From positions 1 to 37,633 of the forward strand of contig CANQJJ010000014.1 in NCBI GenBank assembly GCA_947624215.1: DNA of 37,633 nt. The letters run 5' to 3'. The notes beneath the pieces are model-generated. The model was given only the letters and a program-made list of their open reading frames with translations, was not told where the DNA came from and searched no databases. Positions within the stretch are counted from its first letter, which is position 1, and the number at the start of each line of letters is the position of its first letter. Both the position numbers and the translations under genes were made by a program. This stretch comes from an uncultured Clostridia bacterium. Its GTDB lineage: Bacteria; Bacillota; Clostridia; Christensenellales; Borkfalkiaceae. Shown here one piece after another: positions 14,133 to 37,633 of this stretch.

Positions 14133-14154
14133 CCCATCCCCGATCAAACAAAAG

Positions 14155-14181
14155 GGAGCCTTGCACAAGGGCTCCTTTTTT
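14155..14181 (+). terminator. Rho-independent terminator of acpP
   Basis: GGAGCC at 14155-14160 pairs with GGCTCC at 14170-14175. The stem extends to 8 bp with one G-U, and six T residues follow at 14176-14181. It starts 22 nt after the acpP stop codon. Confidence 0.9.
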
Positions 14182-14270: not shown

Positions 14271-14300
14271 CACGGAATATTCTATTCCGTGTGTTTTTTT
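14269..14300 (+). terminator. Perfect inverted repeat with T-tract (dyad copy 1)
   Basis: Arms 14269-14279 and 14283-14293 are perfectly complementary over 11 bp around a TTC loop. Seven T residues follow at 14294-14300, giving an ideal intrinsic terminator shape. It may back up the acpP terminator, or attenuate the giant gene if transcription starts upstream. Confidence 0.7.
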
Positions 14301-14317
14301 CGCATTCGTGGCATTAT

Positions 14318-14323
14318 TATACT
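14318..14323 (+). promoter_or_regulatory. Weak candidate -10 for the giant gene
   Basis: TATACT lies at 14318-14323, and the -35 position 17 nt upstream is only T-rich. I see no better promoter between acpP and the giant gene, so its promoter remains uncertain. Confidence 0.25.
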
Positions 14324-14404
14324 ATTTATTGGCGAAGAAATCAAGGGTTTGAAAGGCTTTTTTTATATTTTTCACAAACTTTTTTATGAACACCGCTCGG
14401 AAAT

Positions 14405-14433
14405 TGTGCGCGGAATAGAATATTCCGCGCGCA
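14405..14433. repeat. Inverted repeat (dyad copy 2, opposite orientation)
   Basis: Arms 14405-14417 and 14421-14433 pair over 13 bp with one G-U and a GAA loop. The 17-nt core at 14411-14427 is the exact reverse complement of the core at 14272-14288. The flanking stem pairs differ but still pair. It lies 87 nt before the giant gene, probably in its leader. The rest of 14434-14503 shows nothing notable. Confidence 0.75.
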
Positions 14434-14503: not shown

Positions 14504-14516
14504 AAGGAGAAGAGGT
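14504..14516 (+). promoter_or_regulatory. Ribosome-binding site of the giant gene
   Basis: AAGGAG at 14504-14509 and GAGGT at 14512-14516 form a double purine-rich site ahead of ATG 14521. Spacing is 11 and 4 nt, so either register could be used. Confidence 0.8.
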
Positions 14517-14520
14517 AAGT

Positions 14521-17500
14521 ATGAGTAAGCGGTATTCCAAAAAATTATTGGCAATTGTGCTTTGCGCTGTTCTGATGCTGGTAGTTGCGGTCATGGGTGC
14601 CCTGTCGCTCGTGAAGCCGGACAGCAGCTCGGTCGCCGTGTCTGCCGAGGAAGACACGATAGCCGAATATATCGACAGCGACATTACTAAATTCAATAAC
14701 TGGGTGGATACTTCTCCGTCGTTCGACACCGAAAACTATGGTGAGACAGCGGGAAACGTATACCAGCGTACCACTCTTTGGGATATCAAGACGCGTATCG
14801 TCGCTAGGGCGAATGTGACTTTCACTGATGAAAGCGGTGAATCACTTTCGGACGATAGTCGTGTTTTGAAGCCTCATGAATTCAATATCGAAGTTTCTGT
14901 GAACGATAAGATGTTCAGCGACCGCACGGATGGCGCAAGTTGCATGCCCTTCGCTGATGTGTCAGTTGGCAGTTCATACCAAGTAACTCTCTTTTTCGCA
15001 AAGGAAATCGAGTCCTTGCGCGTGGACAACAACCCCACGACGAGCGTACAGTTGGTACAGGACCCTGCTTATCAAAAAGGCACCATGAAAGGCGAGCCTC
15101 CGGAGGATCCCGTCTATCCTTCTACAGGGCTCCGCACCTACAATATTTACTCCTTTGACTACCGTTCGAGCATCACGGCGGTCCCTTACGGGAAAAGTGG
15201 GGCCGAACGCGTGGAAGTCCCCCGTGAACTTCTCACGTTGCAGTTTGCCAACGGCAGCGGTCCGTTTGTGTTCGGCGACTCTTCGGACAACCAAGTTACG
15301 GCGACTTTGACGTATGACACCAGCCCAAAGGAAGAAGGTGCGCAAAGTGATAGCTGCACCATATCGGGCGCGACCGGCAGTACGGCTACCCCCAAGGCTG
15401 TGCGCATCAAAATCAATCAGACCCCGAACAATAGTAAAGAAAATACGGACAAAGATCCCCTTAAGGGCACCGTTTATAACAGCGCGGCAGACGGCAAATC
15501 GGGGCATTGGCTCCGCGCCATAGGCGTGGATGTGCCTCAAAAAGCCGGCGACAACAATGGTACCCAGTATAAATATAATCCAAGCACTGCAGAGCATCAA
15601 TATTACAACTTTTTTGCGCCGAGCGAGAACGCAAGCGACTATGAGTATCTGCTCCGCTTCGGTATTTTGGTGCACGTTTACGATAACAACGGCGTCATGA
15701 CGGAGATGCTCGGCACAGACCCGAGGATCAGTATAGATCCTTCGACGAAGGTCCCCACGACGACGAACGATGTGGATCTCTTTCCCATTGCGCTCAAATA
15801 TGCCCCGGAGGGCTTGGGCAACGGCATCACATCCAACGAGATCAAAATAAGGTTTTACCATGATTCAGGTCTGTGGAACGACGTTTCCTTTACGCAACAA
15901 GTAAAGGGCTTGGATGAATGGAAAGCCGCCACAGACGAGAAAGACGAAAAAATTAGCGGCAATATTGAATTTCAAAACCCCATTTATCCCACAGACTTTG
16001 TAACCTATGGCGAGGGCGGCGTTCTGCCTCTTCTTCAAGCAAAAGGTAAACTTAATTTTACACACTACATGCGCTCGGGCAGAGAGCTCAACCCCAAACT
16101 CGGCGAGCTCAATTTATCGGGTAACGGCGCACCGGTCACAGTCAAGCAAAGTTATAGGGACAGTAAGTATAGTAGCTACGACGAATATAAAGACGGCTAC
16201 TTTATCAAGTGGATCTACTGCAATTATAACGGTGCAACCACATATTTCCCCGTGCGCGTCTCATATGAGGAGATCACGGGTCTCAACATGACGGGCGCAA
16301 TAGGCACGCAGACGTTGAACAGCGCGTTCAACTTTAACGGCACCAATGCTTCGCCGTCGTTCCAATTCACATATAAACACCATTTGTCACAAGAGGATGT
16401 AGCCTCCTCCTTTAGCTCCACGGCGGTAAGAATATACGGCAGTTCCGGCAATGCCTTGAGTACGACGGAAAACGGCAACGTAGCTCCCACGACCAACTTC
16501 TATCATCCCTTGTTTAACGCAACGGTGGGCAATCAGCAAGGTATCGGTCGCTATGGACTTTATTATTACACCAAAGAGGAATTCAAAAACGTTTTAGATG
16601 CAGGTTCAGGTACAAATGCCAAAGAAGCGGAGACAGCCTATCCGTACAGCTCAACTTTTAAGACGATCGATCTGAAAAAATTAGAGTCTGCGGGCAAAAA
16701 TATATACAGCTATTTCAGCGGCTCGATGGACGCCGCAGAGAAACCGTACGACAGATTGCGCTCGAACATCGCCTATGTGCGCCTTGTCTACGTTATAGAG
16801 GAAATCAAAACGACAGACGGTGACGTGATCCAGCCCGCCATCGCTTTTTATCGTGATTATTGGGTGGGTACTTCCTTCATTCTAACAAGCTCAAGTCAGA
16901 ACCTACCGTCGTTCGGCAGCGGTAACACAGTAACCTTCGGCGACCTTGTCAACAGCACCGATCCGAAAGAAGGCGTCTATGATCAGGGCGCAGAGCTGCA
17001 ATTGACCAACTTCGATCCCGCCAATCTCTATGCCGATGGTGTAATCAGCGCAAAGTACAGCCTGCAATTCTACCGCTATGTCGATAGCAAGTGGACACTC
17101 ATTGCTCAAACCAGTGTTACACAGGAGATGGGCTCTGAAGGCGCGGATCCCACATATAAGTGGGAAGTGAAAATGGAAAACGGCGTCACAGGCGTCAAGC
17201 TGGATATAGTTACGCATAACAAAAAATACTATTTGCAGCTGACGGGCGATTCCGTGATTGGCAACTACCGCATGTATGCCTCACTGGATAGTGACGGTAG
17301 CTTTGAGTGGTCCACTCGTGGCGGCGGTACGCCGGCGCCCTCTCCAAACGAGGAAGATTGGGGAGACGGGAACCAAGGCAAGAACCGTACCGACGTCGGC
17401 TTGCCCGAAGATTCGTCGCTATATCGCTATATTGAGTTTGAAGTCAGGGGTCTTACCCTTTCGCTCGAATACGAGATGCCCAACACCTTGGGTTACGGCG

Positions 17501-20500
17501 AAACGTTTACATTTACGCTGAAACTGTATCTCGGCGACGGCGACCAAAGGAAGTTATACAGAATTTATACCAGCAATTCCGCTTATTCCGAGGACGATAA
17601 GGATAAGGTATGGACGTTGGACTACAAGGGCGGCGCGATCGCCGAGGGGCATAAATTCCGCTTGTCCTTTGACGCAGGGGCTCAAAAATATTACTTTGAT
17701 ACAGGCGCGCCCACGGACCCGGGCTATTATACCGTACAGATCGACATTTGGCCCGACGGCAACTACAGCAGCATTTCCGTTTCAACGCACTTGAGAATTC
17801 AAGCCCGCCAGCTCATGCTGCAATGGAACCAAAAGAAGATAGAGGATACACCACTTACCTATAACGGCCAGAAATTTAACCCCTACGATTATCTCCAAAT
17901 CGTATTTTACGACAACAAAGATCTCGAATTTGACAAAACCAACACAAGTGAGGGCGATTACGATTGGCAAATCGTCTATGCAGACAGTGCTTCGGGCGGC
18001 ACGGCAGGCGAGCGCGTCACTACGTTTACGCATGCTCTTACATATAGGATTCGCGTGCAGTTAAACGGCAAATACGCAAATATCTATGCTTGGCACTCCG
18101 ACAATCTTACTTCTGACCACGGCGGTATCTGTAGCGGTATCGACAACTTAGAGGCTACGATCAACTTCACCATTGCCAAGTACGAAGGTAATGAGATCGG
18201 AGCTGACTTTACCACGAGGGAAGGGGACGGCTGGACAATGGAAGGCGTTCTTCCCACCCGCCCTTATTACAGCAAGGGGGAGATCAAAGGCAAACCTACA
18301 AGCGATCCCTTCTTCGGCGGCTACAAAGTTGCGGTGATTTCCCAAGAGACGTACGACGCATATTTTGAACAATATAAGCAGAGTTATGCTGAAACGGGAA
18401 TTCCCAACGGCGGCTTCTACCAATTTTTGGGGGAGAAAAATGCGTCCCGAACAGACGAGGATAACGCCTATTCGCTTGGCGCGAGCGAGGACAACTACTA
18501 TGCGATCGTGTACAGCACCTATATGGATACTGGAGACAACGATTCCGACTTCCAGGACTACAACTTCTGCGAATTTATCACGCCCTTCAAAATTGTAAAG
18601 CGCAAGATCGCCGCGCCCACATTGAAGGAATACGAAGTAACGTATAATGGGACGGAACAGACGGCCGAACTGCAAGGCTTTAATGCCGTTAAGTTGCCGG
18701 AAGAGACCATGGCAACATATTCCACTCTTACGAAGAGTACCATCCATGGCCTACAAAGCCCCATTACTACAAAGGATACCTCCGTCAGCGCGACAAATGC
18801 GGATGTTTATAAAATTTATGTAAGACTCACAAATTATACTAATAATGTTTGGGACGAGGAGACTAACAATGATAAAGTGACGTTTGAGAACGTCAATGGG
18901 GAAAAATACGCCGTCATCACTTGGACGATCAACCGTATGCGGATCGATCCTACGAACACCGAGACCTATCCATTCTTCGATCCCGAAGAGCGGACATACA
19001 GCGGTAGCAGTTCAGAGATTGAAGCGCACTTCCAAAAGTCGGGCAATAGTTTGTCTTATTCGCAGACGGGCACATTGACTCCGTATGTTACCCTTGTTAC
19101 GGCGGTGAGTCAGTACATAGCAACAGACGCGGGCAAATATACCCTCTACATCAAGGCAACGGACAACTATTATATCAGCGAAACGGACGATTCCGCTCTT
19201 GCCGCCCCCGGCGAAACACAGGAGAATTATCCCATCGAGTGGAAGATTCTCAAAAAGACTCTGAATAAGCCCACTACGCAAGAGTCAAAAGTTTATACCG
19301 GGAATCAAGTAACTTTTGAATTTCCAAACTTCAACGAAATTCCTGCCATCGTGAAGTTGGACGGCGTTTCTTATTCGGGCGCCGTGTTCAAGACTGCCGG
19401 TGCCTTGACTAACGAACATTATTTCACACACTATGAGATTGATACCAAGACACTGCATGCGGTGGTAACGTATGCCGGCACGTATACTGTTACTTTTACA
19501 CTGAGTGACAAGGCAAACTATTGTTGGAAGGGCGATTCTGCCGAACCGGATGACGGAGAGAATTACGCCGGCACTTGTGAAGTAAAATTCACCCTTGAAC
19601 GCAAAAAGCTTGAAATCGATTGGGGCCAAGTGGCCTTCACGTACGACGGCAATGGTCATGCCCCCGTGCCAACGGTCAAAAACGCCGGCGGCTCCGATGC
19701 CCTCAAACTTCTGCCCAAGGTTTATAAAGATAACACCGGCGAGGCGCTCGAATCGGACCCCACAGAGGCCTACGATAAATATTGGTCGGTGCTGCAATAT
19801 ACCGATTCCATCCGTGATTGCATCGAAAGCAGGCAAATCACGGGCATTTACGCCGAAGGCGAAGAAAAGTTCGTCTACATTGCCGATAACTACATGTTCG
19901 CGGGTAGCGGCAGCGGCGGCGAGGTCAAACGGGTCGAAATACAGTTTAAGATCACTTCGCAGAGCGTCGCCGTGCCCGAACTAAAAGCCATTCTCGACCC
20001 CGGCGCGACAATTGGCAGCTATAACGGCACAGATAACACCATCATCGTAACCTACAAGGGCGAAAACTATCTCTTCAACGATTTCATCTCCAACTGGGAA
20101 GAAATCGCCGATCTCATCAAGATCACCTCGCCCGACTATAAGACGGATGACAATGTCGTCACGAACAAAGCCCCCGCGTTTATGAGCGTGAAATGGGTCA
20201 CGGTGGGGAGCTCGCTCGGCTACTACGAGATCAATTACTACATCGCCGACCCCGACAACTATTCGTGGCAAGGCAACGTCAAAGGCTCCGAAGAAGCGTT
20301 CACGTTCTATCTGCAGATCAAGCCCTATGAGCTTGCCGCACCCGCGGTCAATGGCATAGACAACGTCTATGAGACGGACTACAACGGCGCGGAGCAGAAC
20401 TTTACGGACGCGCTCACAAATTGGGCGTATTATGGCGAAAAAATCGGCGACGATAGCGACACCCGCGTGAAGATTTACAACGAAAACGAGGCTACCATGT

Positions 20501-23500
20501 CCGCGACGGACGTTAAGCGCGGCACCGGCGAAGGCGACAATGCGCTCGTCGAGGCGTATGAAATTACCGTAGAACTCGCAAGCGATAACTTCGTTTGGAA
20601 AAATGCGGCAAGCGGCGACGGCAACTCCACCGATAGGGAAAATAAAACCTTCTATTTCCGCATCAACCCCATCGCTCTTCAGGTAGAATGGAAGGGCGAG
20701 GGCGACAGCGGCTATGGCACGGCGCCCACGACGACTTACAACGGCGAAGCGCAGGGCCTCGAAGTGCAGCTCGCAGGTGCCCATCCGAGCGACGACGTCA
20801 AATTCGCATACGAGCTTTCCACCACGGATAGCACAGACAGCGCAACCATCCAAGATAAAACAAAAGCCGTAAATGCAGGCTATTACACTGCCACGGTCAC
20901 AAGCATTTCGGGCGATAAAGCGCGCAACTACTATATTGCCTCCTATAAGCGTGCGAAAGCGGGCGACAAGGCGGAGGCTGGGAATGTCGCCACGCAGCCT
21001 GCGCCCAACGCGAAATATACGATTTATAAATTGGGACTTGACAAGCCCACGAGCGAAAATAAAGGCGACAGCTACGTTTATAACAAAGAATTACAGACTT
21101 TCACCCTTCAGAAATGGAACGCTTCTCTTATGGAGATAAGCGCTTTTGCGGGCAAGGACTATACTGCCGCCCAAGGCCCCATAGAGGATGTAAGCTCCCA
21201 GACTGTGGACGACACGCTTCAACTCACGGCAAAGCACGCGGGCAAGTATTCCTTTACAATTTCCCTCAAAGACGATACGATCAAGGGTAACTATTGTTGG
21301 GCCACCGATAATTACAACACGGACCGTCTGCCCGATGCGACAACGGGCATAGATTCCCTTGTCGAAGAGTACCAAGACTATTGGGAGATCAAGCAACGCA
21401 CGATCACCGCGCCCACGCTCGCAAAGGGCGCCGCAGATAAGGAAGATTACAACTTCCGCGCCCAGCCCCGTAAGGAGAACAGTGCGCTCTATCCCAACTT
21501 CGATATCGGTGAGATTCCCGACATTACGGGCAATAGCGGCACCTATACCAAGAAAGTAGACGGCGATTTGCCTTGGGAAATGACCTTCACGGTCAAATAT
21601 TACAACGCCGAAGATGAGCCTATTACCAATTCGCTTGATGAAGACAGCAAGGAAGTCGGATACTACTATTTGATCCTCACGCTCACCGTTCCCGCTACCG
21701 AATGGAGCCAAGATTACGCATGGGCATCCTCGACGGAAGCCTACGAACTCACGCAGAAGAATGCCTATCTCACCGATCATCCCGATGTTTTGATCTCGGA
21801 TGGGGACGTGGTCACGATCAAGCTGTGGTACCGTATTTTAAGGGGCAGCTATTCGGCGAACTTTGCCCTGCATATCACCAAGCAGGCCGTATCTGAGGAT
21901 AATAGCGGTGCGGCAGAAAAATGGATCTACGGCGATTTGGGCAACCAAGGCGGCGGCTATTCCGTGTACTTCACCCGTGCATGGACTTCGGCGGGTCAAC
22001 CAAATCTTTGGGATGAGGGCATAGAAATGCGGGAGCGCTCGGTCTCCTATGCCTTGGTGCGAGAGGGTTACTATGATCCCACGAGGCACACGACACTCAC
22101 CCCTAGTGAACTTGTCAAAAACCAAACGATGTCCGCAGGCGGGCTTCAGAACGTCAGTGGACCTAATACAAGCGAAGACGCGGCAAAATTCATTCCCGAG
22201 TACCTGCCCTACAAGGCGGGCAGATATGTCGCGCTCATAAAGTATACGCCCAACGGCCCCAATGACGCGAGGAACCCCACCGAGACGGCAACGCTCGATG
22301 AAAAAACCTTTGAGGTCTACTTCACCATAGAGCAGCGCGAAATAGAGTTTACATGGGGCAACAAAACTCCCACTTACAGCGGCAAATCGCAGTTGCCCAC
22401 CACGTCTATTACCAATTCCGTGACGACAAACGGGATCTATCCCGGAACCGGCAGTGTATCCGACTCCCTCAATCTCACCGTGCAATGGGTGGAGGATGGC
22501 GTTCCCCAAGCAGATGGGCCCGTAAACGTCAACCGTGCTAAAACGGTGGACCAGGTCGGCAATTACACGATCCGTGCAACAAAAATCAACGGCACGTCGG
22601 CGGATAACTATAAGTTGCCCGATCTCGACAAAGCGCAAATCGACGACTTTGCGATTCAGCCTATTCAAATTACCCTCAAAGCGCAGAATGCGGAGCGTGA
22701 ATACGGCGACTACTTGTCCGGAACCAGCAACTATGGCGATACCAATATGGGCAGGAGCTTCTTCAACTACGATGAAGCAATCGGTAAAATTCTCGAAAAG
22801 AATCTGCAAGAAGACTTGGAGAACGCATTTTATGTTTTCGGATGCACTGAAGTGACCTACAATGCGGGGGCTCTTGTAAACCAGAGGTCAGACGTGAATG
22901 GCACGTATTATACGGTCATTATGATGAACAACCCCGACACATATGCTGGCCGATACAGCAACTATATGTTCACCTACGAGGCAGGCAAGTTTACCATAAA
23001 ACCGAAACAGATCGACAAGGTAGAGTGGGTAGAAGGCTCCTATACCTATGACGGGAAAGATCACCTTGCCGGCAATGTAACGAGCTTTGTGTACTTTGTA
23101 AGCAATATAGACAATGCGCACCTTGCTCCCCAATTACGGCTCGAAGTGGATGGCGTCGAGGTCACGAACTTCAAATATGCGGGCGAATATACCTTCACCG
23201 TACTCAGCGCAGGCACGGAAAATCCCAACTTCGTACTCGTGGGTAATGCCATGAACGCTACCCACACGTTCACCATGCAAAAGCGCACGGTATATGTCAC
23301 GGCAAATGATATCACCACCGATTACGGCTCCGAACCTACTGCCGCACAACTGAAATGGAGCTATACGTCCGGTCATGGCGCATCTGCTCACTTTGTGGAC
23401 AACAGTGGCTCGGAGATCACGGGCTGGCAAGAGAGTATCGACGACTACACCGTTTCGGGTGGCGCGAATACGTTTACACTGCCCGTCACCACGACCGCGA

Positions 23501-29500: not shown

Positions 29501-32500
29501 TTGCGGGCAAAGATAGTTTCGTTTCAACAATTCCTCAGCGCGCGGGCGAGTTCCAAGTGAAACTTGTTTTGCCGCAGAATACGTTGGGTGGCTACAACTA
29601 CAAGTTCGAAGGTGGCGCAACCGAGACAACTTGCAATTATACCATCGAGAAGCAGAAGATCCTGCTCGAGTGGAAATATCCGCTCATTCAGGATGGTACC
29701 GCGGAGAACAGCATTGAAAAGTTCGACCAGCGTATCATGGAGTTCAGCTACGCGTTCGAAACCGCCGTTCAAGAGTACGTACCCAGCAACCACGGCGTCA
29801 CGGTAACCATCAGCGGCGCGGGCACGGGCGTAGGGACCGTCACGCTTACAAACGAATACGACTACGCACTCATAGCGAATGAAGGCGACAAGGGGTCTGA
29901 GACACTCGTACTTACTTTCCGCGTGATCTTAGACGACGTCGGCTTTACCGTGACGATCACGGGCTGGAAATACAGTCAGTTCGACGAGGCTGAGAACCTG
30001 CCCAAGTTTAACACCACGCAGACAATCGCCAACCCCGCTGTAACGTATCTATATATCGCCCTCAAAGAGAGTGATATCGTGACGTGGGAGGCCTACTCCG
30101 AGCAGCTTGCCGACACAAATCTCGATAAGACCGTAAGGCAGAATATCATCAATGCGCTCAACCAACTTTTGAGGGAGAGAGGGTCCACAACCGTCATCGA
30201 GAACAAGAATGCGGGCAGCTACCTCGTTTACGCCACGCTTTCCGAGCAGGTCGACTACGCCAGCGCGGTCACCGCTTGCTACTTTGTGATCGAGAAGTTA
30301 GACCTTGCCGTTCCCACGCTCACGGCCGAGGGTGGACACGAAGAATGCTACTACAACGGCAGCGCGCATAAGATGGACATCACCGACTTCAACTCTGCGA
30401 CCATGGAATATATCGCGGATAGCGGGCTTACCATCTCCACCGAGCAGCGAGGCGGCAGCGGTGTCGTCACCGTGCTCAGCGCGACCGAGGCGGGTGATTA
30501 CAAAATTCAATGGGTCTTGCGCGACACGACGAACTATGTATGGCAGGGCGACGATCAGAACCCCGTCACGACCTACACCATCCACAAAAATACGGTGCAG
30601 GTGAGCAAGAACAACGACAATTCTATCACCTACGGCGAGACGTTCACGCCCACGACCACGGTGTCGTTTGTAAACCTGAATGAAACCGCGGCATTTACGG
30701 ATTTCGCCATCACGTTCGGCTATCAAAAAGCAGACGAAGGTATTTCCGAAGTTGCGCCCAAGGCGGCGGGAACGTATACGATCTATGCCAAGGTCGAAGA
30801 CGGCGGCGCGAACTTCACAGGGATCACCGACTGGACGCGGATCGGCACGCTCACGATCGGCAAGGCGAACCTTGCAATTTATACCGAAAGCGCCGAGGTG
30901 GTATACGGCGAGAAAGCGCCCGCATTCACCTACAAGACCGACTCCGGTCTATTCTACGGCGATACGCTGGAAACTCTGCTTGCAGGGCTTGGCATCACCA
31001 GCGAAGCGACGGGCTACACGGTGGGGGCAGACGTAAACGAAGACGGCTATTCCATCACAATCAATTTGAACGGCGCAACGCTCGATAACTATGAAGTTAC
31101 CAAAAATGAGGACGAGCAGAATGCGGCACGTCTCAAAGTCGTGGCCCGCGAGCTGACGCTGACTATTCAGACGCTCAAGCGCTACTTCAACGATTTCCAA
31201 GCGCCCGAATTCAAGACGGCCGTCGTTTATTCGTCGGCCGAGGGTTCGGATTACTTCACCGTCACCGATGGCTCCATTTACGGCACCGACAAGCTGCAGA
31301 TCAAGCTCACGCTTGCCCCTGCAAGTGATGGCAAGTACAGCGTCGGCAGTTATGCGCTCTCGGGCGTTGTGGATACCGATTACGAAGGCGGCGCACAGGC
31401 GAACTATGCGGTTACCGTAAACAATGGCGCGATCGAAATTGAGCGGCTGACCATCACATTTGAGCACACCGAGGTAAAGTCCGCGGTCGGCGATGGGAGT
31501 AAGATCGTCTACAACCACGGCAACGAAGTGCCTCTGCACATTCTCCTCGAGTATACCGCCGCAGATCAGGAAAGAACGCAGACGGTCGAAAATGCCGAGC
31601 TCAAAATCGGCAAGGAAGGCTATGAGAAATACTTCCGCGTGACCTATTCGGGCAGTGACAATCAAAACAATGTCTACGGCAATACCGCAGAAGTTTCGGT
31701 AGCTCCCGTAAATGCGGGCACCTACCGTGCGAGCATTCTCCTTGTCGCGGAGTATGAAGGGCAGGTGGAACTCACGGGCATCAGTTCTGCGCGCTCCGAC
31801 GTCTACAACATCGAGAGGTTCGATCTCGATATCGCGCAGGTGCAGGAAAACATCAAAAAGAACCCTGCCTACACGCACACCTACGACGGCGTGAAATATA
31901 AGCCCGCACAAGAGACCGTGCAGAGCGACGTAAAACAAGCGCTCGGGGATCTCTATGCCAAGGGCAATGCCACGGCGCAAGCTTCGCTCGCAGGGGCGTT
32001 CACTGTGGGCAAATATGGAGAGGGCCTCAACGTCGGGAGCTACAATATCCCCGTCGCGTTCACCCCGAAGGGCGCAGCGAATTATAGCTGGGTCAGAGGA
32101 GCAAATCCCGTATATTCGGAGACTGCCGAGCTAACTTTCGAGATCGTAAAGCAGTGGAATACGGAAATCACTGTCGAGAAGACAGAGACAGCGGAGCATA
32201 TCTTCGACGGCATGTTCAACGCCGACAAGCTGAAGATGAAGTCCAACGTGCGCGCGTTCAAGGATTACAAGTTGAATCCCGACATCGGCGAGATCACCGT
32301 GTATGTCGCGACGGGCGATACGCAGCCCGAAAAGGGCGCTACGGGCGAGTGGACGGAGCTCACTTACGAGCAGGCCATCGCCATCAACAGCGCGGCGGCC
32401 ATGGCAGGCAAGCATTTTATCTACATCAAGCTTGGCGAAACGGCAAACTACGCCGCGGCCGAAACGGAAATTTTGGAATATGAGATCAAGCCGAGAAATG

Positions 32501-35500
32501 TTCTCATCAAGGTGAACGGCAACGCGAACGGCGGCACAGACTATGTCGGCCCCACCTACACCGACAGCTTGACCTTGGCCCAACTCACCGCGCCCGACTA
32601 CACGTTTATCGACGGCGTCAATGCGGGCAGCACGCTCGGCAAAGACAACGCGATCGGCATCATCACCGCTTCGCTCATGGCGACCTTCACCTATTCGGGC
32701 AAGTCGTTCGGCGGCATCGAATTCGACGGCACCGATGTGCAAGCGGGCAAATATACCATCACGGCGGCCACCGGCGGCACGTGTGCGAGCTGCTTTATAA
32801 TTTCCAATGCAGCGGGTTGCGCGGTGGGAGGCAACACCCCTCACTACATCGTGCCCCGCGCCGCGGTCTACGGCAACGACGTTCGAGTAAAATCCTTCGA
32901 TTACAATGCAAAGCTGCACACTGCGGAAGAGGCCGTAAGCGGCAACGATGGCTATAATGTACTTTGGAGCGTAGAGGAGGCCTCGGGTACCAATGCGGGT
33001 ACCTATTCCTTCAACGTGACCCTCAAAGATCAAAACCACCACTGGGCGCGTTTCCAAGGCGAAAACATTGCTGATGAACGCACCGATTCCGTGCCGCTGT
33101 TCTTCACCATCAACCAGGTGACGGCTTCGGTCGAGTTCACGAGCATCACCTTCTTGGTGACGCCGCAGGGTGCGCAAGAGGCCGAAGAAAAGGTATTGAC
33201 TGCTTCGGGCGGTGTCACGTGGATCTATCGTGACGAGGCTACTCGTACGAATTTCGTCTATAAGGTCACTGCGAATAGGAACGTGCTTACGATCGATGCG
33301 GAGAAAGTGAGCGTTTTGTATTCGGTAGGCGGCGATTGGACCACGGAGCTTCCCACCAACGCGGGCACCTATCGGGTGAAGTTGAGCCTTGCCCAAACGG
33401 AGAACTTCTCGAATACCGCCGAATCGAAAGAGTTTACGTTTACCATTGAAAAGCGCACGGTGGCAAAGATCGAGGCGCCCGCCAGCCAAAACTACACAGG
33501 CGCGATGCTGGAGACGCAGCTTGAAGGCGTCGATCTCAACATCATGAACGTTGAGAAGATAACAGATGCGCTCATGATCAACTATGTTTCCGGCGAGAGC
33601 GGGTACAGGACCATGCTTCGTGCCATCAACGTCGGAACGTATAAAATCAAAGTTACCCTTATCGATACTTCCAACTACAAGTGGGAAGACGAAGTGGACG
33701 GCAAACAGGATATCACCGTCACATGGGAGATTTGGAACGTCGCGGGCAATGTCACGCTCGGAGAGGTCGAAGACGTCTTCTACGGCTTCCATTTCTCAGT
33801 GAGCGCAACTTCTACGTTTGCGACAGAGACCGAGGCATTCAAGTTCTGGTATGCCGCATATAACGGCGAGACGAGCGGCGAAGATGTAAGCGTATGGACG
33901 CCTTGGAACACAAACGGTCCCAAGAATGCGGGCATGTATTGGATCCGCGCCGAGCTTGTAAGAACGAGCAACTACGAGGCGGCGTACGATTACCAACAGG
34001 CCGAGATCAAGAAGGCGGCTCTGACCGTGACGGTCTCCATCTCTGAGAGCGGCATAGAATATCGCTACGGCGGCGCCCTGCCCACAAGCTATGGCGTACA
34101 TGCTGATGGCTTGCAGTACGGTGAGCGTTGGGACAGCCTCAATGTTACACCGAAGTATAAAACGGTCGACGCCAGTAAGCAAGACATGCTGGGCAAGAAG
34201 TTTGTCGTCGGCACGTACTATCTGACGGTCGAAGCATTCGAGCTCGACAACTACGAAGTCATGGTGGTGGACGCCGCGTTCGAGGTCCTGCCCAAGCAGA
34301 TACAGGTGAATATCCTGCCGCAGACGGCGACCTATCAGGGCGGCAAACTGCCCGAAATCAACAAAGACCAATGGGCGCTTGTGGATGAAAATGCGCTCGT
34401 GGAAGACGACCAATTGACAAACGAGAATATCACCCTCTCGGTCGAAGAAGTCGCGAAGTACAATGCGGCCGCCTACTCCATCAACGGCACGCAGAAGGGC
34501 GCAGAGAACTACGCCATCGAGTTCTTGTCGGGCACGTTGACCATCAACCCCGCCGAGATCAACATCGAGAACATCACGGCCTACAACGTAGTTTACGGCG
34601 ACGATGTCAACGTGACGTTCAAGGTGAGAGACAGAGCGGATGAGCAGAGGAGCGGCTACAAGTTTACCAAAGGCGTAAAAATCTACGTTGCCTATTTCAA
34701 GGACAATGAAGATCTGCAAGGCGGGGCGCCCAAGGATGCGGGCACCTACAATGTCAAGCTCGCGCTCGGGCAGGAAGCCCCCGGCAACGACGACAGTACC
34801 AACTATGTTCTCACGGGAAGCATCGACGCGACGCTCGTCATCGAGAAGAAACAGATCGACCACAACGAGATCGTAAAGAAGGTCAACGGAACGACCTACA
34901 CCTACACGGGCACGTTGCAGGGTCCCGTTGCAAGCACGGTCGCGGGCTATTCCGAAGAGCTGTTCGGCAAGGCTGATCTCTACACCGTGAATGGCCTCAC
35001 AAAGGAAACGAACGCCGGCACCTACGAATATCGCTTGAAGATCGCAGACGGGATGTTCGTCAACTATCGCTGGACGGAGACCGACAACCAAGAGATCGTA
35101 GCGAGCTGGGCGATTTTGCAGGCGACGAACTCCGTCAATTGGACTGCGGAGCAGCAGGATCCCTACACCGCGGTGTACGGCGAGAGCTATGAGATCACGG
35201 CAACGGCCACGTTCGGCACGGTAGGGTATGCCTATGCGGCGAAGAAGGAAGGCGACTACGAGACGAGCGATTGGGTGCTCGGATTCCCCGCAAATGCAGG
35301 GGCCTACGTCATCCGCGCCTACGTGGAGGGCACCAACAATTATACGGGCGCAGATACGCAGCACGAACTGACCATCACCCCCGCGGAGCTTTTCGTTCAG
35401 ATCGGCAGCCCCACAGTGACCTACGGCGACGAGCTCGGCACGATCCTTCTCACCGTTTCGGGCTTTAAGACGCCTTACTTCGGCACAGTTGCGGGCACGC

Positions 35501-37633
35501 GTGACGACGAAGCAAGCTCGGGTTGGACGGTCCACGAGCCCACCTTCCGCACCTTCCTCAGCCATGGCTATGAGCCCGGCAGCCCCGTTTCGGGGACCTA
35601 TCTCATCACCTATACATACAACGGCGATGTAGACCTCGGCAACTATGTCATCAAGGCTGTGAACGTTACGGGCGGCAATATCCAAGTGCAGCAGCGCGAC
35701 CTCAAGATCGTGATCGAGGACCAGCAGAAGGTGTACGACGCGGTATATGCCGAGGAGGCTCCCGAACTCGATAGCAAGAAATGGCACACTTCCAACGACT
35801 CCTCCGTATTCGGCGACGACAGGGCAACCTTGGGCATCACCCTTGTGTTGCAAGAGAGCGCCCCGTATAAAGTGGGTGAGCCTTACACCATCGACATTCA
35901 GATCACGGAAAATAACACCAACGCGAACTACACAATCACCGTTGAGACCTATGGCACCCTCACCATCACCCCGCTGGACATCGAAGTGGAACCCGAGAGA
36001 GAGGAACCCGGGGCACCCGGGACGCAGGGCGAGATCAAGGGCGGACTTGCGATCACGCCCAACATCGCCGAGGGCAACGAAGGCCACGACACGGGGATCG
36101 ACGGCAAGCCTCAGCTCGGCGGCGTGACCATCACCTACGGCGACGACTACGAGGCAGAGATCTACATCGGCGGCACGCCGTATAGAGAGGGCCAAGAGTT
36201 CTCCGCGGGCGTGTATATCCACTTCATCTACACCGCGATCGCGGCGACTGTCTCCGAGCCCGCGGGCTCCGAGTCTGCCGGCATCAGCCTGTTCTCTGCG
36301 CGGAATGGCGAATACAAGCATCCCACCGACGCGGGCGCTTACACCGTGAAGCTCGTGTTGACGACGGCACCTGTGGGCGCCGACGGCAACTATACCGTGG
36401 CAGAAAACTACACGCTGAAAGGGGATTTCGAAACCACCGTCATCATCAGCAAGAAGCAGATCGGGAGCGCCGCCGTTGTAGAGAAGGTCAATGAAACGAC
36501 CTACACCTACACGGGTGAGGCGCAGGGCCCCGAAGCAAGCGCGATCGCGGGCTATTCCGCAGAGCTGTTCAAAGTAGCAGGTCTTTACACCGTGAATGGC
36601 CTTACAAAGGAAACGAACGCCGGCACCTACGAATATCGCTTGAAGATCGCAGACGGGATGTTCGTCAATTATCGCTGGACGGAGACCGACAACCAAGAGA
36701 TCACGGTAAGCTGGGAGATCAAGCAGGCGCCGAACGAGCTCAGTTGGACCTCGAGCCCCGAAACGGCGGAATACGGCGACATCTATGAGATCAAGGCAAC
36801 GGCCGATTTCGGCACGGTAGGGTATGCCTATGCGGCGAAGAAGGAAGGCGACTACGAGACGAGCGATTGGGTGCTCGGATTCCCCGCAAATGCAGGGGCC
36901 TACGTCATCCGCGCCTACGTGGAGGGCACCAACAATTATACGGGCGCAGATACGCAGCACGAACTGACCATCACCCGCGCAACGCTCAACGTTCAAATCG
37001 ACGACAAGAGCATTACCTACGGCGATGAGGCCGGCGTATTCACCCTCACCGTTACGGGCTACAAGACGCCGTTCGGCGGTTCGTCCGCGGATGACGCGGC
37101 AAGCTCGGGCTGGGCGCTGGAAATCGAGGAATTCCTCAAGTATATCAAGGTATCCAACGGCAGCGGCGATTACGCAGCGGGCAGCAACATTGGCGACTAC
37201 ACCGTCACCTACACGGGCGGCAATATCGAACTTGCCAATTATATCATCAATGCAAAAGACAACGTCGCAGCGGGCAAGCTCAAGGTAGAACAGCGCGCCA
37301 TCACCGTTGTGATCGAGGACCAGTCTTTGCCTTATATCAAGGACTATGCGACCTCGGATCCCAACCCCGACGATACAAAGTGGCATGTCGACGGCGAGTC
37401 CGTGCTCCTCGATAAGGATAAGGAGTACATGGGGATCGGCGTGTATCTCGCCGATAAGGGTGTTGCACCTTACTTCGCCGACGGCACGCAGTATGATATC
37501 AACGGGGAATACACGGCAAACGAATACAACAAGAACTACAAGATCACGTTCGTTTCCGGATACCTCACCCTCACGAAGCAGGATATCAACATCGAAGCAG
37601 GGTCCATCAAGATCTATAACAATAATTCCGATT
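14521..37633 (+). CDS. Giant exported MBG/Ig-like repeat protein, 3' end beyond window
   Basis: One frame stays open from ATG 14521 to the window edge, at least 7,704 residues (very roughly 0.8 MDa). Residues 1-42 form a Sec signal peptide: SKRYSKK, a hydrophobic core at about 9-30, and a likely cut after VSA. Residues about 43-935 resemble nothing I recognise. A Gly/Pro-rich linker (about 934-964) precedes tandem beta-rich modules to the end. Many begin near [IL]TV and contain YG[DE], like MBG YGX-type domains (for example at 22702, 26677, 28408, 30904, 35422, 37018). Others carry a Y-[TN]-G start, NAGTY and NY.W, ending in W.I.K. Cysteine is rare. No catalytic motif, transmembrane segment or wall anchor is visible; the anchor may lie beyond the window. 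Likely a surface or adhesion fibre. Composition is less GC-rich than the operon upstream. Confidence 0.93.
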   Translation, partial: MSKRYSKKLLAIVLCAVLMLVVAVMGALSLVKPDSSSVAVSAEEDTIAEYIDSDITKFNNWVDTSPSFDTENYGETAGNVYQRTTLWDIKTRIVARANVTFTDESGESLSDDSRVLKPHEFNIEVSVNDKMFSDRTDGASCMPFADVSVGSSYQVTLFFAKEIESLRVDNNPTTSVQLVQDPAYQKGTMKGEPPEDPVYPSTGLRTYNIYSFDYRSSITAVPYGKSGAERVEVPRELLTLQFANGSGPFVFGDSSDNQVTATLTYDTSPKEEGAQSDSCTISGATGSTATPKAVRIKINQTPNNSKENTDKDPLKGTVYNSAADGKSGHWLRAIGVDVPQKAGDNNGTQYKYNPSTAEHQYYNFFAPSENASDYEYLLRFGILVHVYDNNGVMTEMLGTDPRISIDPSTKVPTTTNDVDLFPIALKYAPEGLGNGITSNEIKIRFYHDSGLWNDVSFTQQVKGLDEWKAATDEKDEKISGNIEFQNPIYPTDFVTYGEGGVLPLLQAKGKLNFTHYMRSGRELNPKLGELNLSGNGAPVTVKQSYRDSKYSSYDEYKDGYFIKWIYCNYNGATTYFPVRVSYEEITGLNMTGAIGTQTLNSAFNFNGTNASPSFQFTYKHHLSQEDVASSFSSTAVRIYGSSGNALSTTENGNVAPTTNFYHPLFNATVGNQQGIGRYGLYYYTKEEFKNVLDAGSGTNAKEAETAYPYSSTFKTIDLKKLESAGKNIYSYFSGSMDAAEKPYDRLRSNIAYVRLVYVIEEIKTTDGDVIQPAIAFYRDYWVGTSFILTSSSQNLPSFGSGNTVTFGDLVNSTDPKEGVYDQGAELQLTNFDPANLYADGVISAKYSLQFYRYVDSKWTLIAQTSVTQEMGSEGADPTYKWEVKMENGVTGVKLDIVTHNKKYYLQLTGDSVIGNYRMYASLDSDGSFEWSTRGGGTPAPSPNEEDWGDGNQGKNRTDVGLPEDSSLYRYIEFEVRGLTLSLEYEMPNTLGYGETFTFTLKLYLGDGDQRKLYRIYTSNSAYSEDDKDKVWTLDYKGGAIAEGHKFRLSFDAGAQKYYFDTGAPTDPGYYTVQIDIWPDGNYSSISVSTHLRIQARQLMLQWNQKKIEDTPLTYNGQKFNPYDYLQIVFYDNKDLEFDKTNTSEGDYDWQIVYADSASGGTAGERVTTFTHALTYRIRVQLNGKYANIYAWHSDNLTSDHGGICSGIDNLEATINFTIAKYEGNEIGADFTTREGDGWTMEGVLPTRPYYSKGEIKGKPTSDPFFGGYKVAVISQETYDAYFEQYKQSYAETGIPNGGFYQFLGEKNASRTDEDNAYSLGASEDNYYAIVYSTYMDTGDNDSDFQDYNFCEFITPFKIVKRKIAAPTLKEYEVTYNGTEQTAELQGFNAVKLPEETMATYSTLTKSTIHGLQSPITTKDTSVSATNADVYKIYVRLTNYTNNVWDEETNNDKVTFENVNGEKYAVITWTINRMRIDPTNTETYPFFDPEERTYSGSSSEIEAHFQKSGNSLSYSQTGTLTPYVTLVTAVSQYIATDAGKYTLYIKATDNYYISETDDSALAAPGETQENYPIEWKILKKTLNKPTTQESKVYTGNQVTFEFPNFNEIPAIVKLDGVSYSGAVFKTAGALTNEHYFTHYEIDTKTLHAVVTYAGTYTVTFTLSDKANYCWKGDSAEPDDGENYAGTCEVKFTLERKKLEIDWGQVAFTYDGNGHAPVPTVKNAGGSDALKLLPKVYKDNTGEALESDPTEAYDKYWSVLQYTDSIRDCIESRQITGIYAEGEEKFVYIADNYMFAGSGSGGEVKRVEIQFKITSQSVAVPELKAILDPGATIGSYNGTDNTIIVTYKGENYLFNDFISNWEEIADLIKITSPDYKTDDNVVTNKAPAFMSVKWVTVGSSLGYYEINYYIADPDNYSWQGNVKGSEEAFTFYLQIKPYELAAPAVNGIDNVYETDYNGAEQNFTDALTNWAYYGEKIGDDSDTRVKIYNENEATMSATDVKRGTGEGDNALVEAYEITVELASDNFVWKNAASGDGNSTDRENKTFYFRINPIALQVEWKGEGDSGYGTAPTTTYNGEAQGLEVQLAGAHPSDDVKFAYELSTTDSTDSATIQDKTKAVNAGYYTATVTSISGDKARNYYIASYKRAKAGDKAEAGNVATQPAPNAKYTIYKLGLDKPTSENKGDSYVYNKELQTFTLQKWNASLMEISAFAGKDYTAAQGPIEDVSSQTVDDTLQLTAKHAGKYSFTISLKDDTIKGNYCWATDNYNTDRLPDATTGIDSLVEEYQDYWEIKQRTITAPTLAKGAADKEDYNFRAQPRKENSALYPNFDIGEIPDITGNSGTYTKKVDGDLPWEMTFTVKYYNAEDEPITNSLDEDSKEVGYYYLILTLTVPATEWSQDYAWASSTEAYELTQKNAYLTDHPDVLISDGDVVTIKLWYRILRGSYSANFALHITKQAVSEDNSGAAEKWIYGDLGNQGGGYSVYFTRAWTSAGQPNLWDEGIEMRERSVSYALVREGYYDPTRHTTLTPSELVKNQTMSAGGLQNVSGPNTSEDAAKFIPEYLPYKAGRYVALIKYTPNGPNDARNPTETATLDEKTFEVYFTIEQREIEFTWGNKTPTYSGKSQLPTTSITNSVTTNGIYPGTGSVSDSLNLTVQWVEDGVPQADGPVNVNRAKTVDQVGNYTIRATKINGTSADNYKLPDLDKAQIDDFAIQPIQITLKAQNAEREYGDYLSGTSNYGDTNMGRSFFNYDEAIGKILEKNLQEDLENAFYVFGCTEVTYNAGALVNQRSDVNGTYYTVIMMNNPDTYAGRYSNYMFTYEAGKFTIKPKQIDKVEWVEGSYTYDGKDHLAGNVTSFVYFVSNIDNAHLAPQLRLEVDGVEVTNFKYAGEYTFTVLSAGTENPNFVLVGNAMNATHTFTMQKRTVYVTANDITTDYGSEPTAAQLKWSYTSGHGASAHFVDNSGSEITGWQESIDDYTVSGGANTFTLPVTTTAKQFSDVGGTYTTNITLAEPYNNYIIEIVAGKHTVQQKVIEVKWDENLTFYYNGTDRTKNGTEAWLAYYESLTEKEGDAPKKIYLRVRAYEGSNINDFVPFQYVKAGETAYKFYAYSFNDTATESKNYRLPLSSDGDLYGKLFNEVQLKARDVYLEASDLSYVYGDEVPTWNGSNHGWTYGAQSANAENQFLTEGEENNFWIAVTSLTQTTGKRKLDNEFKLIFSGSAADFNGLDYFITSGKTSLDTKNGQGGYDYHVHFKSAAITVNARPIVVTYERQEHEYGAERQDPANHVTVALADNYSTLGGTGSAALVNGHGNSKVFKIEALNGDVNIVTSEIYPDVGTYKVVLTLLDDNYSVTFKMTYYNGGSDHRTADDVNEKCTAAEGYIITASKILSNGFSITAYTGTYNAAAHNALGSISGKYYDNKGVLQSYNAWDGTAKDEANNYFAVYFRITADWNADKTQTDWNASWTDVTLTYKGGNLESTDGYIWQKALPQFKHAGTYRVYYAVVADNHEFVFGEDNYIEVVINQKEVQVYANFEGYYSETFAGYQPQYKFEGFEGDENENSALNISKVSAIEWHIDSYSAGSLAGDYPLLLTFGSFTATDYTFKAKDYSAGAEGVAGANHVKVKPLPITVTVNDGNAKNTYYYNAAMGKESRYDLNRLGEKYAYTIKVNEGIKNILGESITDIFANDYKDGHEGVSFFTLSSDAIPDENMTLGVGFHDIKFAYAANGEQRYAVTLVSERGKEVKHDNGTCIKDGFEITPAVIKEEAVHAYGSTNVVGTGGKTYDEEFHNALHLGSTSDTFNGENGNKDLTAFATAADKEKINWTFVVFFNKDAESNYANDAFFDKDYSSDTSVIKTTGNNPQIIDAGTYIVYYRLQLDNHTTVYRMLTGKIAKAENKWVSEYQLNGRNIDGNAWIYGAKADNNSDGYDSRDITEQIPVAKFNRKYGVIGNEGSSATKAMNEVPVVTLKKGSQVIGEFTIDFYASSIPGWLSQNSTIPGKGSYKNGALLGAGTYTVTFSMPETENYEAIKEQTVKFTIGKKELTVKTNDMEIFYGEDAPTPTVSITGYVNGEGNSVLETESRTYKILDKLDLGSGKEYIKGYERGSVGDYYITVQWTSENASDNYILDLHSDGKLKVKPRALTVTISNHTNKYNFNISKAKETVQWFDLDTSNWSQMVTVDNTNRADGTHYTGFYSDEISKVIRLTTGALIWNSGIGYKYADINQNKTADAGYYAITGELNLTTDYSKNYVITFKGDWGESVETQAEHGSDPKKGECGIFHIAPADVTIFVIWPTDGRVGETKEFVYTGHEKVFDAGPVQGAEGLSANIVYYQWDSSDYTIALEQAPVNVGKYKVGFTLGGAGASNYTAATAEAEFEIKPKQITVNYQTMWYGEGGGKELIPATDIVYYMREYVVVGTFGTQEADVQNGNNNDKMVVFADTGKIRIFITYNNDPDTKMIAAGTYTVTAKVQYNVGGDDWQDCGNYTINQRNSQQITVSQKVVNSPSQTAPGGNSLTYDGEEKTFTVDNFMGETDTFIKQAVMSVKFEYSKSGLFADDVQVLTVEGSDGKITVNSIIKWMVRDAGAYRITVTLNSPENYDFLGNISRDSLTFTFTVNKKDLYVQVKDANIEYGDSFDDAFKKTLELLFSDSPVDDDNFTATGGFVSSDIEDGKVKEGVLNKSSMSIEPTSYNESNNAGHTTSIKLSGITAENYNVTCENYGVLTVVPRKITVQIHDPDQASVYIGGEFTVANLDDDFRPTLTLVDGSTLNTRVDHDVNEIGVTYEVKGDTVGTHALVPTNNNGNYDITFTGDWKGEDEYAGKAGTFTVVRAPLTVTVVITNGAGDQELDITFGDTPVFDVAYEGWKGEDIKTMPELLQPFEFRNEQQNYSAQPTYVRGSSIAGSKYTVSISNQSDANIFFENYTVKFADAVTMTVVSRVITPTVSNDHREFEANDDRSNKDLPAIIAYENQYGDIAPNATVTYKGEYNDKDPEKQFAGKDSFVSTIPQRAGEFQVKLVLPQNTLGGYNYKFEGGATETTCNYTIEKQKILLEWKYPLIQDGTAENSIEKFDQRIMEFSYAFETAVQEYVPSNHGVTVTISGAGTGVGTVTLTNEYDYALIANEGDKGSETLVLTFRVILDDVGFTVTITGWKYSQFDEAENLPKFNTTQTIANPAVTYLYIALKESDIVTWEAYSEQLADTNLDKTVRQNIINALNQLLRERGSTTVIENKNAGSYLVYATLSEQVDYASAVTACYFVIEKLDLAVPTLTAEGGHEECYYNGSAHKMDITDFNSATMEYIADSGLTISTEQRGGSGVVTVLSATEAGDYKIQWVLRDTTNYVWQGDDQNPVTTYTIHKNTVQVSKNNDNSITYGETFTPTTTVSFVNLNETAAFTDFAITFGYQKADEGISEVAPKAAGTYTIYAKVEDGGANFTGITDWTRIGTLTIGKANLAIYTESAEVVYGEKAPAFTYKTDSGLFYGDTLETLLAGLGITSEATGYTVGADVNEDGYSITINLNGATLDNYEVTKNEDEQNAARLKVVARELTLTIQTLKRYFNDFQAPEFKTAVVYSSAEGSDYFTVTDGSIYGTDKLQIKLTLAPASDGKYSVGSYALSGVVDTDYEGGAQANYAVTVNNGAIEIERLTITFEHTEVKSAVGDGSKIVYNHGNEVPLHILLEYTAADQERTQTVENAELKIGKEGYEKYFRVTYSGSDNQNNVYGNTAEVSVAPVNAGTYRASILLVAEYEGQVELTGISSARSDVYNIERFDLDIAQVQENIKKNPAYTHTYDGVKYKPAQETVQSDVKQALGDLYAKGNATAQASLAGAFTVGKYGEGLNVGSYNIPVAFTPKGAANYSWVRGANPVYSETAELTFEIVKQWNTEITVEKTETAEHIFDGMFNADKLKMKSNVRAFKDYKLNPDIGEITVYVATGDTQPEKGATGEWTELTYEQAIAINSAAAMAGKHFIYIKLGETANYAAAETEILEYEIKPRNVLIKVNGNANGGTDYVGPTYTDSLTLAQLTAPDYTFIDGVNAGSTLGKDNAIGIITASLMATFTYSGKSFGGIEFDGTDVQAGKYTITAATGGTCASCFIISNAAGCAVGGNTPHYIVPRAAVYGNDVRVKSFDYNAKLHTAEEAVSGNDGYNVLWSVEEASGTNAGTYSFNVTLKDQNHHWARFQGENIADERTDSVPLFFTINQVTASVEFTSITFLVTPQGAQEAEEKVLTASGGVTWIYRDEATRTNFVYKVTANRNVLTIDAEKVSVLYSVGGDWTTELPTNAGTYRVKLSLAQTENFSNTAESKEFTFTIEKRTVAKIEAPASQNYTGAMLETQLEGVDLNIMNVEKITDALMINYVSGESGYRTMLRAINVGTYKIKVTLIDTSNYKWEDEVDGKQDITVTWEIWNVAGNVTLGEVEDVFYGFHFSVSATSTFATETEAFKFWYAAYNGETSGEDVSVWTPWNTNGPKNAGMYWIRAELVRTSNYEAAYDYQQAEIKKAALTVTVSISESGIEYRYGGALPTSYGVHADGLQYGERWDSLNVTPKYKTVDASKQDMLGKKFVVGTYYLTVEAFELDNYEVMVVDAAFEVLPKQIQVNILPQTATYQGGKLPEINKDQWALVDENALVEDDQLTNENITLSVEEVAKYNAAAYSINGTQKGAENYAIEFLSGTLTINPAEINIENITAYNVVYGDDVNVTFKVRDRADEQRSGYKFTKGVKIYVAYFKDNEDLQGGAPKDAGTYNVKLALGQEAPGNDDSTNYVLTGSIDATLVIEKKQIDHNEIVKKVNGTTYTYTGTLQGPVASTVAGYSEELFGKADLYTVNGLTKETNAGTYEYRLKIADGMFVNYRWTETDNQEIVASWAILQATNSVNWTAEQQDPYTAVYGESYEITATATFGTVGYAYAAKKEGDYETSDWVLGFPANAGAYVIRAYVEGTNNYTGADTQHELTITPAELFVQIGSPTVTYGDELGTILLTVSGFKTPYFGTVAGTRDDEASSGWTVHEPTFRTFLSHGYEPGSPVSGTYLITYTYNGDVDLGNYVIKAVNVTGGNIQVQQRDLKIVIEDQQKVYDAVYAEEAPELDSKKWHTSNDSSVFGDDRATLGITLVLQESAPYKVGEPYTIDIQITENNTNANYTITVETYGTLTITPLDIEVEPEREEPGAPGTQGEIKGGLAITPNIAEGNEGHDTGIDGKPQLGGVTITYGDDYEAEIYIGGTPYREGQEFSAGVYIHFIYTAIAATVSEPAGSESAGISLFSARNGEYKHPTDAGAYTVKLVLTTAPVGADGNYTVAENYTLKGDFETTVIISKKQIGSAAVVEKVNETTYTYTGEAQGPEASAIAGYSAELFKVAGLYTVNGLTKETNAGTYEYRLKIADGMFVNYRWTETDNQEITVSWEIKQAPNELSWTSSPETAEYGDIYEIKATADFGTVGYAYAAKKEGDYETSDWVLGFPANAGAYVIRAYVEGTNNYTGADTQHELTITRATLNVQIDDKSITYGDEAGVFTLTVTGYKTPFGGSSADDAASSGWALEIEEFLKYIKVSNGSGDYAAGSNIGDYTVTYTGGNIELANYIINAKDNVAAGKLKVEQRAITVVIEDQSLPYIKDYATSDPNPDDTKWHVDGESVLLDKDKEYMGIGVYLADKGVAPYFADGTQYDINGEYTANEYNKNYKITFVSGYLTLTKQDINIEAGSIKIYNNNSD
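17440..30300 (+). repeat. MBG/Ig-like module array, divergent part
   Basis: This is the first part of the repeat array inside the giant gene. Modules of about 80-130 residues share NAG-x-Y type strands (for example HAGKYSFTISL at 21238, DVGTYKVVLTL near 24523, GAGTYTVTFSM near 26548) and YGX starts at 22702, 23986 and 26677. Modules are well diverged, and I found no long near-identical DNA tract among them by eye. Confidence 0.75.
30301..31815 (+). repeat. Five-module super-repeat, unit 1
   Basis: About 505 residues. The order of modules is: a YNG/NY.W module (30301), a YGE module (30631), a second YGE module with GLFYGDTLE (30904), an [LI]T[LV]xIQ module (31150) and a module ending in NAGTYRASILL. 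The same order recurs downstream, with sequence identity low but module boundaries clear. Confidence 0.6.
31816..33456 (+). repeat. Five-module super-repeat, unit 2 (irregular)
   Basis: About 547 residues. Modules start near 31816 (YTHTYDG...NYSW), 32146, 32491 (NVLIKVNG), 32866 (FDYNAK...HHW) and 33118. The fourth module resembles a first-position module, so the order differs from the other units. An unusual Cys cluster (CASCF, AAGC) sits near 32782-32820. Confidence 0.5.
33457..34851 (+). repeat. Five-module super-repeat, unit 3
   Basis: About 465 residues. Modules are NYTG...NYKW with ITVTWEI (33457), a FYGFHFSVSAT module (33775), LTVTVS with YGG (34018), QIQVNI (34297) and INIENI with VVYGDD (34558). 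The module order is the same as in the next two units. Confidence 0.7.
34978..35097 (+). repeat. 120-nt near-identical tract, copy 1 (copy 2 at 36583-36702)
   Basis: The two 120-nt tracts lie 1,605 nt apart and differ at only three positions by my reading. All three are synonymous C/T changes, so the encoded 40 residues are identical. Confidence 0.9.
35212..35380 (+). repeat. 169-nt identical tract, copy 1 (copy 2 at 36808-36976)
   Basis: The two tracts lie 1,596 nt apart and read identical at every position, including synonymous sites. They span most of the FGTVGYAYA module up to the HELTIT boundary strand. Sequence on either side diverges at once. Confidence 0.92.
36457..37633 (+). repeat. 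Five-module super-repeat, unit 5, cut by the window edge
   Basis: Copies unit 4 module by module: YTYTG...NYRWT (36457), EYGDIYEI with FGTVGYAYA (36772), VQI with TYGDE (37018), RAITVVIEDQ (37297), then the start of DINIEAGSI at the right edge. More array probably continues beyond the window. Confidence 0.8.

Follow-up and report, generated by a model that had tools for sequence, protein, structure and literature searches.

A giant exported repeat-protein gene and a putative invertible promoter before it in an uncultured Clostridia bacterium

What is encoded by a bacterial reading frame that runs without a stop codon to the last base of its contig, and how might expression of so large a gene be controlled? 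Such a frame was found in the window analysed here, the whole stretch of 37,633 nt that constitutes contig C14 of an uncultured gut Clostridia bacterium (source genome of 1.98 Mb in 87 contigs, 95% complete). An original prediction had described a giant exported protein; the present analysis revealed, in addition, a second giant gene, a conversion-like tract and a probable invertible promoter.

Extent and relatives of the giant gene

The gene and its putative translation signals are:
14521 to 37632, plus strand: gene for a giant exported repeat protein, of which 7,704 codons are present and the 3' end is missing; its ortholog predicts about 9,230 codons
14504 to 14515, plus strand: two Shine-Dalgarno-like stretches, AAGGAG (14504-14509) and AGAGG (14511-14515), both 5' of the ATG

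An ORF scan of the window recovered the predicted frame, with its ATG start, 7,704 codons and no stop up to the final contig base, as well as the double Shine-Dalgarno motif ahead of it. For base-shuffled sequence, the probability of an absence of stops in this frame is approximately 10^-153, and each of the remaining five frames over the gene contains 43-504 stops. In the 5' to 3' direction, the GC3 of the frame climbs steadily from 0.59 to 0.76.

Searches with the N-terminal region identified closed (complete) genes both in congeners and in one further genus. Of 398 genomes of the family, 7 carried members, 8 in all, and a distant one was found in another family of the same order. Two subfamilies can be distinguished: A, composed of the window gene, G216 (9,228 aa), G061 (8,907 aa) and G057 (9,432 aa), and B, composed of C32, G236 (8,754 aa), G045 (7,646 aa) and G218 (split across two contigs). 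The ortholog G216, from the other genus, is closed within a 304-kb contig, and its residues 1-7697 share 60% identity with residues 1-7703 of the window protein. C32 (L007/L008; 626-23843) is a second giant frame of the source genome, open, with its ATG at 626, at least 7,739 codons and its own inverted repeats; it is 70% identical to the closed G236. The dN/dS ratio is about 0.25 for the window gene and G216, and 0.43-0.52 for C32 and G236, with third-position changes dominating, i.e. well below 1, and the giant gene is under purifying selection. Collinearity with closed genes of 7,646-9,432 aa, together with this selection, bears out the claim that the frame is a real gene, of which the window holds the 5' part (approximately 83%), with about 1,530 residues (4.6 kb) missing. 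Of 200 genomes sampled from the family, 94 contained the Pfam domain MBG_2 above its cut-off, and the longest frame reached 10,128 aa. Giant MBG proteins are common in this bacterial family and the window protein is not the largest of them; the very large size claimed originally is real, but it is not exceptional within the family.

Architecture of the predicted fibre

The following parts of the protein were distinguished:
14521 to 14646, plus strand: signal peptide, residues 1-42, with likely cleavage after AVSA (judged by eye); conserved in all relatives
14647 to 17520, plus strand: conserved N-terminal region, approximately residues 43-1000, with a TTLWDIKTR motif; candidate adhesive head
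17482 to 37632, plus strand: MBG-like stalk array, 45 segments by iterated profile

The signal peptide, also noted in the original prediction, has the expected form, with one strong hydrophobic segment (residues 9-27). No Pfam match was found in residues 1-2000, and the structure model of the N-terminal region was poor (AlphaFold, pLDDT 59.7), too weak for a fold search. Repeat modules had been claimed up to the contig edge, and the iterated profile indeed traced its 45 MBG-like segments, many of them weak, through residues 988-7576. Against a cut-off of 25 bits, Pfam MBG_2 scored 32.6 in residues 5001-7704, the last third of the protein, and 21.8, below the cut-off, in residues 2001-5000. Residues 5355-5760 of the array (406 residues) were modelled as all-beta with a pLDDT of 85.8. 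Foldseek searches with this multi-domain model gave the Bacillus anthracis TIE and Sap S-layer domains as best matches (E-values of about 1e-5 to 1e-4, TM near 0.2), and VIA-align gave Ig folds with a top Z of 6.4; as far as the model goes, this is the common Ig-like arrangement and nothing more specific.

In all closed relatives, an N-terminal signal-like helix is accompanied by a C-terminal TM helix and a basic tail, and an LPxTG-type motif is absent from their last 60 residues. The C-terminus, where the original prediction had proposed a search for LPXTG, is thus described through the relatives only (a single TM helix plus a basic tail), and the TM anchor of the window protein, whose own end is missing, is presumed from them. 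If the missing end matches that of G216, the predicted mass is about 1.02 MDa. A stalk of roughly 80-90 modules, each about 4 nm long, would measure approximately 0.3-0.4 micrometres. The best reading of the window protein is a membrane-anchored fibrillar adhesin of about 1 MDa. Its adhesion role is putative and suggested by family resemblance, the N-terminal region having no recognised adhesive domain. That the gene is genuine and its product a surface fibre is close to certain.

Second giant gene, conversion-like tract and assembly break

Two features mark the 3' end of the window:
35104 to 37633, plus strand: tract (approximately the last 2.5 kb) 91% identical in DNA to the C32 paralog; conversion-like exchange
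37557 to 37633, no strand assigned: 77-bp exact repeat in common with the C32 terminus; point at which the assembly breaks

C14 and C32 agree exactly in their final 77 nt, and the gene is still open at the edge, as had been noted, because the assembly breaks there, in the way expected of a k=77 de Bruijn assembler at a repeat; contigs C31 and C32 likewise overlap by exactly 77 bases. Queries taken from the contig end (77 and 634 bases) and from the C-terminal proteins of relatives retrieved no contig in the bin that continues either gene. A match in C15 was rejected as a continuation, since it belongs to a distinct MBG protein frame of 1,614 aa.

The proteins of C14 and C32 share about 33% identity up to residue 6800 and 81-90% past it. 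Within the tract, dS between C14 and C32 (0.12-0.15) is lower than that between the orthologs C32 and G236 (about 0.4), so C14 and C32 exchanged sequence after those species had split. Beyond residue 6800, A and B genes from different genomes become more alike as well (57-74%), which points to exchange that was repeated or older; a tree of the tract was poorly supported except for the grouping of C14 with C32 (82%). A tract of this kind would account for the common break point of these genes in short-read assemblies, and giant proteins of this kind are therefore probably under-counted.

Two objections to the frame itself can be weighed here. Near residue 6850 the identity leaps to 81-90% from about 35%, as it would after a misjoin of two giant genes that left a chimeric frame near 35.1 kb. 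However, each gene remains collinear with its own closed ortholog across the jump, with unchanged identity (63-76% for C14/G216 and 67-71% for C32/G236), in other genomes, too, the A- and B-type genes converge past residue 6800, and the joins differ in sequence, the tract being 91% and not 100% identical, all of which makes such an artefact very improbable. The other objection is that the true genes lie on the opposite strand and the plus frame is fortuitous. Antisense ORFs, which the original prediction expected annotators to report instead, are present within the gene and reach 1,278 aa. Their length is a consequence of codon bias, since TTA, CTA and TCA are nearly excluded from the giant frame (43 of 7,704 codons), and it is the plus frame that is collinear over 7,700 codons in several genera, starts with a signal peptide and shows the third-position pattern of a coding sequence, which leaves this objection with a negligible probability.

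Neighbouring genes

One feature precedes the giant gene:
13905 to 14132, plus strand: acyl carrier protein gene, which has a terminator-like hairpin of its own at 14150-14180

At the other end of the window, positions 16-2391 (plus strand) encode an exported 791-aa protein with a HEYGHH motif (metalloprotease-like) and no Pfam match; this gene is GC-poor (approximately 38%) and adjoins a core-gene cluster of about 60% GC. The gene 3' of the giant in G045, G216, G218, G211 and G048 encodes a small TM protein whose cytoplasmic part is long; short versions occur in G236 and G061, and none in G057. This downstream membrane protein (L031:12822-15809, L073 near 7,800, L117/L116 and L119) contains repeats (RGKTLCLYLAL) and a C-terminal VVGVMFRRRGRKVYWFDPDG motif, and the part of it that was searched has no Pfam match.

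Putative invertible promoter before the giant gene

Between the acyl carrier protein gene and the giant gene lie:
14273 to 14289, plus strand: left inverted repeat, CGGAATATTCTATTCCG, extending to 14267 (21/23)
14411 to 14427, minus strand: right inverted repeat, extending to 14433
14290 to 14410, no strand assigned: putative invertible 121-bp segment between the two repeats
14316 to 14344, minus strand: promoter-like site TTGATT-17-TATAAT (10/12), pointing away from the giant gene; OFF if truly the promoter

The repeats are perfect over 17 bp with a 121-bp gap, which was matched by 0 of 1,000 shuffles. Each is nearly palindromic around an asymmetric core, TATTCTA in one and its reverse complement TAGAATA in the other, and each also scores as a terminator-like hairpin. 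Taken by itself, the promoter match of the window is a weak one: 800 bp held 2 such sites against 1.0 expected, and 8% of shuffles of the segment held an equally good site. No site of at least 9/12 was found between the right repeat and the ATG, and none reading rightwards from the acyl carrier protein terminator up to the left repeat. No recombinase gene adjoins the giant gene. Elsewhere in the source genome the repeat core occurs once, with one mismatch, approximately 36 bp past the stop side of a recombinase gene (C8:24623-25522), which is also the top match in this genome to the recombinase of G216; the C8 recombinase is probably the cognate of the window repeats, as a candidate identified by sequence.

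A comparable layout was found at the C32, G216 and G236 loci. In each of them, a gene encoding a tyrosine recombinase of about 305 aa (Phage_integrase family) lies directly 5' of inverted repeats (that of C32 being split over C31 and C32), and these repeats match at 20/21 positions in G216 and 35/44 in C32 (0 of 200 shuffles in both cases) and, more weakly, at 14/16 in G236 (18 of 200 shuffles as good). The C32 and G236 repeats look homologous and differ by one core base, T in both C32 sites and C in both G236 sites, a paired change that fits matched recombination sites. In all four loci the segment contains a promoter-like site that faces away from the giant gene (10/12 in three, 12/12 in C32), and all four copies are therefore assembled in what would be the OFF arrangement; in G216, promoter-like sites occur outside the switch as well. 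A strong promoter facing the recombinase gene's end would be sensible mainly if it is able to turn round.

A further locus of the source genome, C5 (L111), comprises a tyrosine recombinase gene (71910-72815) and, after it, inverted repeats that are perfect over 20 bp; these precede an ABC transporter operon and a large exported protein (2,900 residues or more). Its promoter-like site reads inward, which is the ON arrangement as assembled. At 8-10 other giant MBG loci in the family, both a recombinase gene and comparable repeats were absent, save for low-complexity C/G-rich palindromes in G006 and G045, and a switch as a rule for giant MBG genes was rejected. Many short C/G-rich REP-like palindromes (CCTCCCCCTT...AAGGGGGAGG) are present 5' of the G045 giant (L030, region 4001-9865) and upstream in G006 C13.

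Interpretation and alternative explanations

We consider it likely that an invertible promoter precedes the window gene, and only marginally less so that the locus as a whole encodes a surface fibre of about 9,200 residues and 1 MDa under a recombinase-inverted promoter. The signal peptide would direct the protein through Sec, dozens of MBG-like Ig-type modules would build a long stalk with the conserved N-terminal region at its far tip, where it probably binds a target, and the C-terminal helix and basic tail would hold the fibre in the membrane. A tyrosine recombinase, probably acting in trans from contig C8, would invert the 121-bp segment between 14273-14289 and 14411-14427, probably giving on/off expression in single cells, and the outward promoter-like site as assembled would mean that the giant gene is OFF in the dominant cells. 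Inversion, promoter activity and trans action are putative, as they are deduced from sequence.

The same adhesin gene could instead be read from an ordinary promoter, with the repeats serving as back-to-back hairpins (terminators or insulators). The terminator-like score of both repeats, the lack of an adjoining recombinase gene and the switchless state of most other giant MBG genes all agree with this. It is nevertheless unlikely, since the cores of the two hairpins are asymmetric and oppositely oriented, which inversion sites require, and the same layout, with unrelated sequences, adjoins recombinase genes in C32, G216, G236 and C5; the window core, moreover, recurs next to the C8 recombinase, and the stretch from the right repeat to the ATG lacks any promoter-like site of 9/12 or more. 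Alternatively, the promoter may lie outside the segment, with one orientation forming a terminator in the leader RNA. This is the arrangement of cwpV, itself a surface repeat protein gene of Clostridia with inverted repeats and the distant recombinase RecV (PMC2784873), and the terminator-like repeats would suit it. Still, the segment itself holds a promoter-like site in four loci, perfect in C32, and an outside rightward site is wanting upstream of the left repeat, as far back as the terminator of the acyl carrier protein gene; we regard this version as more doubtful than the hairpins.

Returning to the invertible promoter, its extension to the genus, namely two paralogous fibres of about 1 MDa (A and B) with their own recombinase-flipped promoters, stalk ends homogenised by conversion, distinct tips, and A switched in trans, is a proposal for and against which we find the case evenly balanced. 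If true, cells could show A, B, both or neither. Two giant genes of about 27 kb would occupy approximately 2.7% of a 2-Mb genome, and a megadalton protein is costly; a flip switch would let the cell keep such genes while paying the cost only sometimes.

Comparison with known systems

MBG is a listed stalk domain of fibrillar adhesins, and in Firmicutes the adhesive domains of these proteins are mostly N-terminal (PMC9210967). The window protein, very long, exported and built of repeated stalk domains, resembles them in its great length, signal peptide, MBG-type stalk, unannotated N-terminal region and, going by the closed relatives, a presumed C-terminal surface anchor. Unlike them, it is about 8 times as long as the average training sequence (1,196 aa) and has no known adhesive domain, and its closed relatives end in a TM helix and basic tail without a sortase motif; going by these relatives, it does not belong to the LPXTG sortase-anchored class.

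The Giant1-5 proteins of Apilactobacillus kunkeei, in the part of the published account available to us (PMC12863079), are likewise exported repeat proteins of 3,000-8,000 aa from a small genome, with purifying selection and recombination tracts. They differ in ending with SH3b-like wall-binding domains without a TM helix, whereas the closed relatives here have TM ends, and in that their authors saw no recent gene conversion between paralogs, whereas a recent conversion-like tract was found here; a genetic switch is not noted in that part of the account.

As in fim-type and other invertible promoters ("invertons"), inverted repeats flank a short segment before the gene, with a promoter-like site between them and a recombinase nearby in most loci. 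The differences are that the window recombinase is apparently elsewhere in the genome and that inversion is putative here.

A further parallel is CwpV/RecV of Clostridioides difficile, where 21-bp inverted repeats are 195 bp apart and the tyrosine recombinase RecV is distant (PMC2784873). Both systems combine a Clostridia surface repeat protein with short repeats about 0.1-0.2 kb apart 5' of the gene and a recombinase that can be remote. The cwpV promoter, however, lies outside the invertible segment, whereas the promoter-like site here lies inside it, and the giant protein has MBG modules and a TM helix instead of Cwp anchoring. CwpV promotes aggregation and phage resistance, according to the parts of the reports available (PMC3080850, PMC4737114), and by analogy aggregation, attachment or phage shielding are candidate roles of the giant fibre.
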